NCBI GenBank assembly: GCA_002245135.1
Contig: NGBS01000312.1
Span: 1-64,000, forward strand
Direction: 5' to 3'
Origin: Proteromonas lacertae
Taxonomy: Eukaryota > Sar > Bigyra > Opalinata > Proteromonadidae
Length of the DNA stretch: 64,000 nt
Shown: positions 2,767 through 40,706 of the stretch, piece by piece
How positions within the stretch are numbered: the first letter of the stretch is position 1
Layout of the letters: every line of letters begins with the position of its first letter
The notes under the pieces: model-generated
Told to the model about the DNA's origin: nothing
The model's input: only the letters and a program-made list of their open reading frames with translations
Databases searched by the model: none
Position numbers and translations under genes: made by a program

Positions 2767-4837
2767 ATGTCAGTGATTAGACCTAAGAATGACATGAGTA
2801 TAGTAACAAGAACGAAATCAAAGATGGTAAAGAAAAATCATCGATTATCAAGGCAAGGAGTTAGAAGATTATCAAATATTGTTCAGCAGTTAGATGAAAG
2901 TTCAAAGAATAACAAAACATATGAAGAAGCTAAACCTTCTTGTTGTGTAATTAAGACTCGACAAAACCCAAAAATTACCCGATTACTCAATAGTAAAATA
3001 TACAACATCGTTTATGTAATATTTATAATTCTTTCTATAATTTTACATGATATAAACATTATGCTTTTACCTAAACAAGCAGATATCGCAATAGCTATCA
3101 TTTTGTTACTAATAACAGTGATGTTTATTGTTGATTTAACATTAAGATCGTTGTATAAGTTCCAATACTGTTTATCAAACCTATTTTGGCTTGATATACT
3201 TGGTACATTGTCATTAATTCCAGATTTCATCGATTTATTCAGATCATTAGCTGTATATATTATATATTTAGTATTTTTAATTATAGTCTGGATTTGGTGA
3301 ATATGAAATCAGTGGAAATGGAACATCTGCAGAATTACCTTACAGAATCCCATCCTTTTTCCTACTTCAGTTATTATCTGCAGTAAGAACAATACGTGTA
3401 TTTCGATTGGCTAATTTATTCCATTTTTATTCTCCACATAAAAAGTATCGTTGATATTAATTTATTAAAATAGAGAGGAAGTCTATACAAATATTTATTC
3501 AAAGCCATCCAAGTTAGGGAAACACTTATCAGACTTAATAACTAGTAAAATGATAGTAATAATGTTTTTTATGTCATTATTCTTACCACTTTTTACATCT
3601 GCATCATATGATAGTCAAATGAATTTAAAAGTGAATTATCAATTCTAGAACAATCCTATGCAAAGAGTAAAAATGATTTATATCCAATTATTTATAAACA
3701 ATTTGTTGAGAATGGTGATAGTGAGATAATATATTTGAATATAGGTGGTGAAGTAATGATTCATAACCATAATAAATTAAAATCTTTAAGAGTATATAAT
3801 ATATATATTATTGTTATTATTATTTATTATTTATAGCTAATACAAATGATGGATGCTTCTACCTCCAAAAGTACCGTTTATATCAATGTCAAACATAGTT
3901 TGACTGAAATATATGGTTTACAACTAGCGATGAGTGTAATAGTAATATTAATCCTTATCTTAGGATGTTTTATCATCAATAAAAGCGCTTATAATCTCGT
4001 AGTTAAACCAATTGAAAGAATGACATCTATGATCTCCAAATTAGCTGGAACAATTTGTATTTTAGCAGATGAAAACTTAAGTGATGATGGTTCAGAAGAT
4101 ACTGAAGCAGATGAAGATGAAGATGAAACTAAACTCTTAGAAACTGTAGTCTCTAAGATGGCTGAATTATTTGACGTTCAATCTACAAAGACTGGTGCTA
4201 AAGCTGATAGATTATTGACTGGTTCAAGAACTACTGAGATTAGATCAAGAGGTGCTGTATATAAAGTGAATGTGATTGAATCTACTGATATTGGAGGACC
4301 ACAAGATTTGAATAATTTATATCATGGAATTATTAGTGATGAGATAAAGAAAACTGCCAAACAAGCACAGATTGATTTAGAACGTATATATATATATATT
4401 TATTTATTTATTTGTATATAGAAAACCCTGAATTATCATCAATGCAATCTGTTTTATCACATCCAGTAGCAACTCAAGCATTTAAGATATTTTTAGCCAA
4501 AAAGTTGAACTTAGAGAATTATATGTTTTGGAATGAAGTTGAGAAATTCAGAACAAGTACATTACAATATGCTAACAGAATCAGCGATAATTTTATTATC
4601 AGTGGAGCAACAAATCAAGTTAATGTTAGTTCATTGGATAGAGATACTGTACTACAAGCCTTAGAAACGAGACAATTTCCTGTTACTGTATTTGACCATT
4701 GCCAAGCTATTGCATTTCAACTTCTGGATACTAATAATTTCAGAGATTTCTTGTTAAGTGTTGAATGTAGGAATTATGTTGAGAAAAAGAAGGAAGATGA
4801 AATACATATTGTTGTAAACACACCTTTGAATCACTAG
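2767..4837 (+). CDS. Voltage-sensor-like membrane protein with C-terminal RGS domain
   Basis: The basic N-terminus leads into four putative membrane segments that look like a voltage sensor: S1 (VYVIFIILSIIL), S2 (IAIILLLITVMFIVDLTLR), S3 with FWLDILGTLSLIPDF, and S4 with spaced arginines (SAVRTIRVFRLANLF). A fifth segment (MIVIMFFMSLFLPLF), an outward-facing region of about 80 residues and a sixth segment (LAMSVIVILILILGCFI) follow. Next is a HAMP-like linker (VVKPIERMTSMISKLAG), an acidic stretch, and an RGS domain near the end containing ENYMFWNEVEKFR. RGS domains speed GTP hydrolysis by G-alpha subunits. Introns: 3253-3286, 3445-3473, 3792-3836, 4384-4421. The frame needs a one-base change near 3620. 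The gene stops at a TAG at 4835. Domain calls are by eye; the RGS call is the surest. Confidence 0.75.
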
Positions 4838-23647: not shown

Positions 23648-24097
23648 TTAAAAGAAAACTGAATTATAAAAAAAACGAAATTCATCCAATAGAATTTCAT
23701 GCAAGCCTCAAATTAATCTTTAGAATAAATGGTTGTTTTTCTTTTGTTACTTCTCTACTGCCACTTTTGTTGAGATTTGGTGGCTGATCGATATATTAAG
23801 GTTAGTTTTTTATTTTCAATTTTGTCATTTTCTTTACTCTTTCTCTCGCATTTTAGTTATTTTCTATAAGAAGTTAATCTATTTTCTCATCAAGAAGTAT
23901 GAGAAGGAAGAATAAAAACTGCATCCTCTCATAAAAGTGATTTTTATCTTAAATAAGCTTGAATTATGGTTTGTGTTTCATTCCATTTTATTCTATTGAT
24001 AATCAAAAATAATGATAACTATCACCTAGTTTTATTTGCTTATCCCAAAATATATGCAATTAATAATAAAAAAAAGTAATGAATACTATAGATCTTC
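23648..24097. other. Gene-free stretch between a zinc-protein start and SELENOK 3' end
   Basis: No convincing exon is seen. The right edge is the distal 3' untranslated region of the leftward selenoprotein K gene. The left edge is presumably the promoter and leader of the leftward zinc-binding protein starting at 23647. Confidence 0.4.
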
Positions 24098-24142
24098 ATC
24101 AAATATTATCCACCAAAAGATGGTTTACGATAATATCATCAT
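24098..24142 (-). promoter_or_regulatory. Candidate SECIS element (selenocysteine insertion)
   Basis: On the minus strand the segment folds into the eukaryotic SECIS core. The 5' quartet side ATGAT (24142-24138) faces 3' TGAT (24101-24098), giving the tandem sheared G.A/A.G pairs. Helix II is a G-T wobble plus eight Watson-Crick pairs (ATATTATC with GATAATAT). Twelve bases after the quartet TGA an AAA sits in an apical bulge, topped by a short ACC/GGT mini-helix, as in type II elements. It lies about 40 nt beyond the final stop and about 50 nt beyond the in-frame TGA of SELENOK. The fold was drawn by hand. Confidence 0.75.
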
Positions 24143-24182
24143 CAAATAAGTTCTAAATATTCATTCTAAAAGATATTCACTT

Positions 24183-24646
24183 CTACTTACCTCAGCTACC
24201 TCCACCACAAGCTATAAACAACAATTAATAAAATAGTATACAGAGATTACCGAATCTATTTGACAATCCAGCTGTCCTAGGACCTCTTGGCTCACTGAAA
24301 CTTGGATTATTATTACCACGATCGTGCATTTTGGGAAATCTTTTACTGTTTTCATAATCGAATCTTCCTTCACCACCTGGTCTTTCTATAACTCCACTTG
24401 TTACACTCGAAGTTTTACCAGTTCCCTGAAAGAAGAATAAAAAAAATGCTGACTATACATAGAACAAAGTACGGAAACTATATAATTAAAATTAAAATAA
24501 AACATACAAGAAAGTTATGAAGTTTATAACAGACCATAAAGTGTCTGTAATAATTGAAAGTCTCCAAGGGGATCTTTCACCTTCTACAACTTTGCCTAAA
24601 CAAATAAATGATGTGAAATAATCATACCATTAACTATATAAGTCAT
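24183..24646 (-). CDS. SELENOK: Selenoprotein K with in-frame TGA (Sec) codon
   Basis: Five exons (24628-24646, 24508-24595, 24459-24477, 24251-24425, 24183-24211) code 109 residues. The N-terminus MTYIVNGKVVEGERSPWRLS matches SelK's start, with the conserved SPWRLS before a single transmembrane helix (SVINFITFFFRTLFYG). The tail is Gly/Arg/Pro/Ser-rich, as in the family. The last exon reads ACGGGS, TGA (24192-24194), Gly, Lys, TAG, so reading TGA as selenocysteine gives a GGxUGK end like the family's GGUGR. SelK is an ER membrane protein that partners DHHC6 in palmitoylation and acts in ER-associated degradation. A candidate SECIS lies just downstream. Confidence 0.9.
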
Positions 24647-24714: not shown

Positions 24715-24799
24715 GCACGTTTGCCCGAGTGGTCTAAGGGGGTAGACTCAAGTTCTACTGTTGCAATGTGACTCGTGGGTTCAAATCCCACAGCGTGCA
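24715..24799 (+). tRNA. tRNA-Leu (anticodon CAA)
   Basis: A full cloverleaf can be drawn. The acceptor stem GCACGTT pairs with AGCGTGC before the discriminator A. The anticodon stem GTAGA/TCTAC encloses CTCAAGT, with CAA at positions 34-36. A long variable arm marks a class II tRNA, and the T arm has GGTTCAAAT. No intron. A T-rich run downstream (atcttttttc) serves as the Pol III terminator. It sits in the gap between SELENOK and the Tudor-like gene. Confidence 0.95.
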
Positions 24800-37900: not shown

Positions 37901-40706
37901 AATGAATGTAGTGAAAAATGGAATGTCATACAATGAGTTAGTTGAATTACAAAATCAATATACACAATTCCCAACTCTCTATTTACCAGATAAGAAGTAT
38001 ATTGATGAAGTTGAATTATTATTAAATAAAGTGAAAAATTGGGTAAATGAAGCAAAATCTGTTATAGAAAATAGTGAAACACCACTTGAACAATTGGAGA
38101 AATTGTATAATGAATATAAAGAATTAGGATGTAAATATGATATTGGAACTTATATAACTGCACAAATTGAATGGTTGAAAGAAATTAAACCAAGTTTTGG
38201 TAATAAACAATATACAGATATAAAAGTATATATAATATATATATTATTATATTATATTAATTATTTAGCTTGGTTGTTATTGTTGGGCTAAAATCGGTTG
38301 TTATCCTTGGTGGCCAGGATTTGTACCTGATTCAACACCTAATCAATTGGATATAAACATGCAACCAATTGAAGGAAGTCAATTGGTTTATTTATTTGGA
38401 ATTAAGGGTTATAGATATATAGTAGAAAGAGTGAATTGGGATGATAGAATAAAGTATAATTCTACCAATATATTTACTGACTTTTATACTCAAGCTTTGA
38501 AAGAGGTTTGTGATTTTAGTAGTTTAAAAGAACAGAATAGTATGAATTATATTTATTATTATTATTGTATAAATAGATAAAATTAAACACAATTTATCAT
38601 CTTATCCAAAGATACAATGTAGAAGTCCCAACTGCCATATGCCTTTGTTCAATTTATCACAATATTGCTGTTTTGATTGTATGGAATCTGATATTGAGAG
38701 AAAAATGAATGGATTATTTAACTACAAATTAGTATCTTCTACAGCTCCACTACCCAAATCAATACTTCCTGAAAATACAAAATTAGAAACAATTCATATA
38801 GTGAATGAAAGAAGAGCAACAAGATCATCATCTTCTATATTGAATTTACCATCTCCAACATTATTTAGTAAGAAAAATAGAATGATGGAAAGAGGAATTA
38901 ATTATGGAATTGATAGTAGAACTAGAGAAAAAGTGAGAGAGAATTTGTTTAATGGTTTGAAAATTGTCAATGAAAATGAACAGACAAAAACTGATGAAAT
39001 ATCATTTTGAAAATTTAGTTCGTTTTATTATTTTTCTTTAATTTATTTTTTACCATTTATTAAGGAATTTAGCAAAGAATATGGAAGAAGTATTGTATAG
39101 AGAATGTCAGAATTATACAGATCATATCAGAGTAATATTACATCATTTGAAAGATAAGAAGAATCAAGAATTTAGATTGAAACTGATTAATAGTATTTAA
39201 TTATTTTATTGTTATATATATATAGAAGAAATATTATTATCAAAATTACCAACATTATCAACAGATGAAATGTTATCAAGTGTCGAATATGAGAAATTAA
39301 AGAAAGAAAGAGAAGAACATATGAAAGCCAATGTAGTGAAAATGGATATAGGCGAACAATTTGTAGCAAAGAAGACAGATTCAGGTGTAGAATTAGTAAA
39401 AGTTGGTGGAAATAATAATAACAATAGTAATAACAGCAACAATGATAATGAAAATGGTGAAGATAGTAATTCTAATGAGAATAAAAGGAAATTAGTGGAT
39501 GAATTGGATAAAGAAGAAAAAGAGAAAAGAGAATTACAAAAGGAAGAAGAAGAAATGAGAAATACTGAGATTGATATCTCTTTATTACCTACTTCATCAT
39601 CATTATCTGGAGGACCAATTGATATTAAATCACGTATATATATATATATATATATATATTTTAATATTAATATAGTTCCTTCATTATCAGCTCCTGCTTT
39701 ACCTGCTATAACAATTGTTGATCCAAAAGAGATAGAAAATGACAAAATGGAAGAAGAAGGAGAAGAAGATAACAGTGAAAATGAGAATGATAAAGGTAGC
39801 GAAAGTGATAATAATAATAACAATGAAAATGATTCACCATTGAATAAGTCAAATGAAAAGACAAATGAAGATGAATCAAAAGATTTATTCTCAGAATTTT
39901 TAGATGATTCAACAACAGAACCAAAAATCAAAACAGATTCAATTTTACCATCCAAATCCAAACAACAAAAAACACCAACACCAACAAAAGTCAAATCAAT
40001 ATTAGAACCAAAATGGGATAATACATTTACATATAAGAAATTTAAATATTATATAACACCCAAATTACTATTTGGACCTGATATGAAGAATATATTACCA
40101 AGTCCAGTAAGTTGTATAGGAAGAGTCGATTTTAAGATGTTAGAAAACCATATAGAAGCAAGTGTAGCCAAAGGAAAAGGTGTTAGTTTATATGCAATAG
40201 AACCTGAACCAAATGTAAGAGATAAATTTTATGAATTATCTGAACAACTTAGAGGAAAAGAACGAGCTGCAATTGCTGAAGGTGATTATAGAGATCATAA
40301 ATTGACTGTTTATATTGTACCAAAACTGACTGATAAAATGCTGAGGGAAATACCAATAATCTATAGAAAAGGAGAGAAAGATTCAGTTCATTTACTTTTA
40401 ATACACAATGAAACTGAGAGAAGTAAAGAGAATATTAGCTTGATTATTAAGAAAGTAGAAGATGTATATTTTATATTATTATTATTATATGTATAGAATA
40501 GTGAATTGTTAATGTTAATTGATGATATAGCGTATTTTATTGCTCAAGATCCACGAAGAGAGCCATGGGAGATATTGAAGAGAAAAGATGATAAGACGTT
40601 TGGATTCTTAGAAGCTGGAAATGAGTTTTATGAACAATATCAAAAAGCATTATTACATTATTCATCGTATTTTCATCCACCCTTTCAACAGATAATCCCT
40701 CATTAG
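34997..40706 (+). CDS. Multidomain chromatin/transcription regulator: ePHD, PHD, PLU-1-like, PWWP, TFIIS-M, SPOC
   Basis: One gene of about 1,600 residues with some fifteen introns. In order: an extended PHD (DICAFCKQE...VHPACLDLS...KCVCCDKVGASLTCS), a second Cys/His-rich ePHD-like unit, a PHD finger (CCCRKHNTD...DECHEWFHGECV), a PLU-1-like helical region with spaced W-x3-A/S helices, a PWWP domain (CWAKIGCYPWWPGFV), a Cys knuckle, a TFIIS middle domain (RTREKVRENLFNGL ... HHLKDKKNQEFR), an Asn/Glu-rich linker, and a SPOC domain (PSPVSCIGRVDFKM). TFIIS-M plus SPOC is the PHF3/DIDO/Bye1 pairing that binds RNA polymerase II. The exon junction near 39005-39065 is unresolved: the TFIIS domain spans it, so a base change or odd intron is needed. 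Confidence 0.85.
36522..36744 (+). other. Unusually long intron within the PHD/SPOC gene
   Basis: From GTATGT after the codon for Met at LYNQLM to GTATATAG before ITCQFMNN. About 223 nt, five times the local norm. It contains AT hairpins (gatatatatatatc; repeated tatatatata) and no long open frame. Both borders and phase fit one intron. Confidence 0.7.

Follow-up and report, generated by a model that had tools for sequence, protein, structure and literature searches.

A SELENOK gene with an in-frame TGA near its end

We identified a gene of five exons (19, 88, 19, 175 and 29 nt) on the minus strand, running from 24646 to 24183 of the window, the 64-kb stretch of DNA analysed here (Table 1). 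Its spliced product of 109 residues, MTYIVNGKVVEGERSPWRLSIITDTLWSVINFITFFFRTLFYGTGKTSSVTSGVIERPGGEGRFDYENSKRFPKMHDRGNNNPSFSEPRGPRTAGLSNRFACGGGS-U-GK, matches the Pfam family SelK_SelG over residues 2-62 with 49.4 bits (cut-off 23.3, E 7.1e-13). Proteins of the SELENOK family have an SPWRLSxITD N-terminal segment, one hydrophobic segment and a Gly/Arg/Pro-rich tail; selenocysteine (Sec) is the third-last residue, with Gly and then a basic residue after it, and a SECIS element lies behind the stop. The window protein resembles the family (PF10961) in having an SPWRLSxITD-type segment, a segment that we judged by eye to be hydrophobic (TLWSVINFITFFFRTLFYG), a Gly/Arg/Pro tail and a U-G-basic end. 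However, it differs in its terminus (GGGSUGK versus GGUGR in vertebrates), in a 19-nt microexon and in a spacing of 49 nt between TGA and SECIS.

Table 1. Positions of the SELENOK exons, terminal codons and SECIS element in the window.
Feature	Position	Strand	Remarks
Exon 1	24628..24646	-	MTYIVN plus base 1 of the following codon; GT donor at 24627, AG acceptor ending at 24596
Exon 2	24508..24595	-	GKVVEGERSPWRLSIITDTLWSVINFITF...; carries the SelK_SelG match
Exon 3	24459..24477	-	19-nt microexon, F-FRTLFY, between GT-AG introns
Exon 4	24251..24425	-	Gly/Arg/Pro-rich tail
Exon 5, coding end	24183..24211	-	CGGGS-U-GK-stop
In-frame TGA	24192..24194	-	predicted Sec codon
Stop codon TAG	24185-24183	-	two codons past the TGA
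TGA-to-SECIS spacer	24143..24191	-	49 nt
Type II SECIS core	24098..24142	-	ATGA quartet, 9-bp helix, AAA, mini-helix, TGAT
Whole Rfam SECIS_1 match with flanks	24085..24150	-	31.3 bits, gathering cut-off 35

The coding sequence closes with ...ACGGGS-TGA-GGT-AAG-TAG, so that the end GGGS-TGA-Gly-Lys-TAG given in a preliminary description of this DNA holds in the spliced frame; the extent given there, from the ATG at 24646 to a 3' TGAT ending at 24098 on the minus strand, was exact. We take this TGA to stand at the known Sec place of the family, which is that of the vertebrate end GGUGR. In a search of the genome, exon 2 reached 22.2 bits against SelK_SelG on its own and 25.5 bits with its neighbours (E 0.0085), and no second SELENOK locus was reported in that search of the 50.2-Mb assembly. 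Comparison with solved structures gave no useful match, with two hits at chance level. The microexon (24477-24459), which was absent from the preliminary description, sits in the hydrophobic segment of the protein. The frame stays open with these 19 nt and runs into stops without them. A tRNA-Leu(CAA) gene lies at 24715-24799 on the plus strand, divergent from SELENOK and 68 nt from its start codon.

With three candidates scored, a single relative of SelK was recovered, P0121 (E 2.3e-33; identity of 60% across 83% of the query), which seems to be DNA of another species translated without splicing. Of the 24 bases that make up the window microexon and its donor, 23 fit the P0121 reading, as do 29 of the 30 bases compared in the last exon, and the unspliced reading is also compatible with the SELENOK introns of the window. 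Read back from protein, its Sec codon is NGA, with T as one of the possible first bases.

The SECIS element behind SELENOK

Since only two codons follow the TGA, the open frame by itself proves little, and the same fact speaks for an ordinary stop, with SelK ending in ...CGGGS and the hairpin behind it a chance structure or a relic. The core of the SECIS element begins 40 nt past the TAG (24182-24143), and the element has a single unpaired base between the ATGA quartet and the 9-bp helix and an AAA located 12 nt after the quartet. The form reported in the preliminary description (ATGA facing TGAT, nine pairs, AAA twelve bases on and a mini-helix) was borne out, and the distance from the TGA, put there at about 50 nt, measures 49 nt. 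These features are those of a type II SECIS (RF00031), from which the window element differs in its A+T-rich helix, in its score (31.3 versus a gathering cut-off of 35 bits) and in lying very near the UGA.

The gathering cut-off is a scoring convention rather than a structural feature, and was reached by none of the six SECIS_1 matches reported from the genome, SPS2's included. Searching 1.3 kb against 4227 Rfam families returned the SELENOK element with E 6.4e-4. Over the genome of about 50 Mb, SECIS_1 gave zero matches at its default threshold; at E 10, with 132 of 947 first-look candidates scored, it reported SELENOK (E 0.006, second among the six), an MSP-like gene, three SPS2 copies and a sixth locus, L016, which showed no recognisable selenoprotein frame by eye and was left aside. 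The folding energy of the SELENOK element was not unusual compared with shuffled sequences (z -0.25, with 71 of 200 shuffles at least as low), and hence gives the element no support, a point in favour of the ordinary stop. A pattern scanner found further, weaker SECIS-like rows in the window, 7 on the plus and 11 on the minus strand, where one site may yield several rows; the SELENOK element was its most stable site at -9.1 kcal/mol, the next being -7.2.

We also built models from elements of this genome. Model R2 comprised five elements (MSP-like, SPS2, TrxR1, TrxR2 and SelT), SELENOK's being left out, and on both strands of the window it ranked the SELENOK element first of 15 matches with 31.6 bits (E 3.3e-4). 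Recovery by two separately built models, Rfam's and R2, argues against a chance hairpin. The R2 runner-up at 39555-39600 on the minus strand (E 0.023) has UCAU in place of UGAU and three non-standard pairs, and is probably a chance match. Model R1 (SELENOK, MSP-like, SPS2, TrxR1 and TrxR2) was built before the SelT gene was found; applied to nine loci, it placed an element 40 nt past the stop of SelT (E 0.0014), a gene that had been located by protein alone. The alignments were N-padded to keep the helices in register, MAFFT having misaligned the unpadded elements; the E-values from R1 and R2 are rough.

In one five-element alignment, 96.9% of 65 cells were paired and two-sided changes occurred in 12 of 13 pairs, compared with pairing of at most 50.8% in slid controls. 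In the five-element alignment without SELENOK the figures were 96.9% of 65 cells and 13 of 13 pairs, with slid partners at 53.1% or less. The covariation count is partly selected, since the scanner that supplied the TrxR1 and TrxR2 elements accepted only candidates with 8 or more pairs.

Selenocysteine machinery and other selenoprotein genes

Genes for tRNA-Sec, SepSecS, eEFSec, SPS2 and a probable SBP2 were all present when the genome was searched for the machinery of Sec insertion, as the preliminary description had proposed; the lack of this machinery, which that description named as speaking against its reading, was not observed. The tRNA-Sec gene, with a UCA anticodon, lies on contig C279 (C279:10777-10863) and scored 71.7 bits (cut-off 47). 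ARAGORN did not call this copy, and called its near-duplicate on C675, which is three homopolymer bases shorter, as tRNA-SeC(tca). SepSecS was found with E 9.2e-85 and had 3bc8 as its best PDB match. eEFSec occurs on C146 as ORF pieces, whose best PDB matches are 7zjw_E and 5izk_A (7.6e-51); an eEFSec piece falls below the cut-off of the selB family and is the fourth of 25 selB matches. The top selB match was rejected as eEFSec, as it reads as mitochondrial EF-Tu.

The SBP2 candidate (C573:261591) was found with E 0.037 in the genome search and scored 22.6 bits against the L7Ae family (cut-off 22.1). In the PDB its best match was SBP2 (7zjw_B, 7.9e-7) versus 0.023 for eL30 and 0.023 or worse for other L7Ae/L30 proteins; by this best match the gene is probably SBP2. 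A search with the L7Ae family yielded nine matches; six loci, each from a different contig, were translated and recognised by eye as SNU13, NHP2, eL30 (on two contigs), eL8 and eS12 and none as SBP2, and the remaining three matches adjoin three of these six. A locus on C139 (C139:82554-83246) with three weak collinear pieces (E 0.35, 0.018 and 0.0026) is a weak candidate for PSTK; the top KTI12 match was rejected for that role, as it reads as KTI12 itself.

Besides SELENOK, we found five genes that combine in-frame TGA with a SECIS element: SPS2, two thioredoxin reductases (TrxR), SelT and a membrane protein with two TGAs. SPS2 on C624 carries its TGA within KRKG-U-GCK at the catalytic site, with the SECIS behind, and has SPS1 as its best PDB match. 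TrxR1 on C49 (near-duplicate on C621) ends in GGC-U-G and TrxR2 on C994 in NC-U-G, and SelT on C932 has LYCTS-U-SMK and a SECIS-like element. The in-frame TGAs of TrxR, SelT and SPS2 are presumably the known Sec sites of these proteins. The MSP-like membrane protein (L011, in the region of C573:168950) has two in-frame TGAs, in GGA-U-GKK and IGG-U-CWP, and a SECIS. In six of its 18 matches in a protein collection, the second site is Trp in two and Arg in one, and three start past the site. Its two TGAs and SECIS liken it by description to the MSP of Dictyostelium and green algae, where a protein with two Sec residues is known according to the available part of PMC2375036.

Near-duplicate contigs recur in this assembly (loci L001/L002, L013-L015 and L039/L041), with the tRNA-Sec and SPS2 copies differing in homopolymer length. 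The near-duplicate contigs are haplotype or error copies in the assembly.

In a CCT6 chaperonin tree of 24 rows, the window sequence grouped with two other sequences, and this group was joined by three sequences from Blastocystis together with an MMETSP transcript (97/96 support); based on this one gene, the host is probably a stramenopile near Blastocystis. In the Blastocystis genome paper, two thioredoxin reductases were already predicted to contain Sec (PMC3129679). The C-terminal Sec predicted there resembles the GC-U-G and NC-U-G ends of the two TrxR found here. However, in the available part of that paper Sec use is inferred from TrxR alone and SelK is unnamed. In the accessible portions of other studies, SPS2 is described as scattered across stramenopiles (PMC4561486), and SelK as among the most widespread eukaryotic selenoproteins (PMC2375036) and as among the least widely distributed selenoproteins in algae (PMC7539508). 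A search of titles and abstracts found no literature on Sec in opalinids, which is weak evidence since most subscription papers fell outside it.

UGA as a probable selenocysteine codon and as stop

The distance from the Sec UGA to the ATGA quartet is 49 nt in SELENOK, 50 nt in TrxR2 and 109 nt in TrxR1. A vertebrate selenoproteome study, in its available part, quotes a minimum of 51-111 nt for Dio1 and a mammalian range of 207-5207 nt (PMC3316567). The spacing of 49-50 nt in SELENOK and TrxR2 would thus be unusual, at or under the quoted Dio1 minimum, and that of SELENOK is far below the shortest mammalian case in this study, 207 nt. Our search of the literature on UGA-SECIS distance found vertebrate studies and reviews and no protist survey.

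SPS2 presents a related case, as its frame ends on a second TGA that lies 107 nt before the core of its own SECIS in all three assembled copies (L013, L014 and L015), about as near as the Sec UGA of TrxR1 (107 versus 109 nt). Reading through this codon would append UVNRKEKKKKRK. SPS1, the best solved match, extends 17 residues beyond the end of SPS2 (chain of 392, match to 375). Most simply, the terminal UGA is a stop. It is conceivable, and on balance rather unlikely, that a SECIS works over very short distances in this lineage, serving UGAs just 49-50 nt upstream in SELENOK and TrxR2, and that partial read-through of this UGA adds a second, C-terminal Sec and the basic tail.

The preliminary description had also held that TGA is an ordinary stop elsewhere in this genome. 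TGA does end some genes, but the claim holds thinly: of the 41 ORF ends in the window whose coding score sufficed for inclusion, 6 were TGA. The tails of two of these (30870 and 39008) resemble coding sequence, and one of the two tails contains a possible donor. Among ATG-started window ORFs of at least 180 aa, 3 of 21 end in TGA. In conserved genes, named by eye, a stop was located in 14 of 17 tried, and 13 were TAA or TAG, the one TGA being that of SPS2. The two window TGAs with coding-like tails are probably gene ends, which argues against the view that TGA is never a stop here. Several window ORFs run into ...YIYIYIY (for example with ends near 4419 and 17211), apparently at introns opening with GTATATATA repeats.

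These TGA ends, two likely ones in the window and that of SPS2, lend some weight to an ordinary stop at the SELENOK TGA. The Rfam score below the cut-off, the short distance to the SECIS, the weakness of the PSTK candidate and the NGA of P0121 also count against decoding as Sec. We nevertheless consider an ordinary stop improbable, as the genome contains the Sec machinery and like SECIS elements accompany five further genes whose frames hold TGA, at the known Sec sites in TrxR, SelT and SPS2. A pseudogene or assembly artefact is more improbable still: the homopolymer differences between near-duplicate contigs mean that single-base errors exist, but the frame is open across five exons, a single SelK locus was reported, and the P0121 reading is compatible with the exons, the microexon and the C-terminal DNA frame. 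The gene is ordinary but real-looking, and judging from its sequence the TGA very probably inserts Sec.

By analogy with the known eukaryotic pathway, SBP2 would bind the kink-turn core (ATGA/TGAT) of the SECIS in a SELENOK mRNA whose UGA lies three codons from the end (U-G-K-stop), with the SECIS 49 nt on, and would bring eEFSec with Sec-tRNA(Sec) to that mRNA. The UGA would then be decoded as Sec and translation would continue, so that a membrane SelK carrying a selenol at its C-terminus is made; its membrane placement and role are likewise those expected from the known pathway.

In conclusion, the locus is very probably the SELENOK of a Blastocystis-related stramenopile, with its UGA decoded as Sec through the type II SECIS. 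The earlier proposal that this lineage reads UGA as Sec is supported by the genes for Sec machinery and by the other SECIS-bearing selenoprotein genes. As a Sec-type TrxR had already been predicted in Blastocystis, SELENOK here would be a further case of a known system. The two UGAs in one SPS2 mRNA allow a direct test of the choice between Sec and stop, and the natural short spacings allow a direct test of the minimum-distance rule. Overall, the sequence points to a Sec system, with six or more selenoprotein genes, retained in a Blastocystis-related stramenopile.
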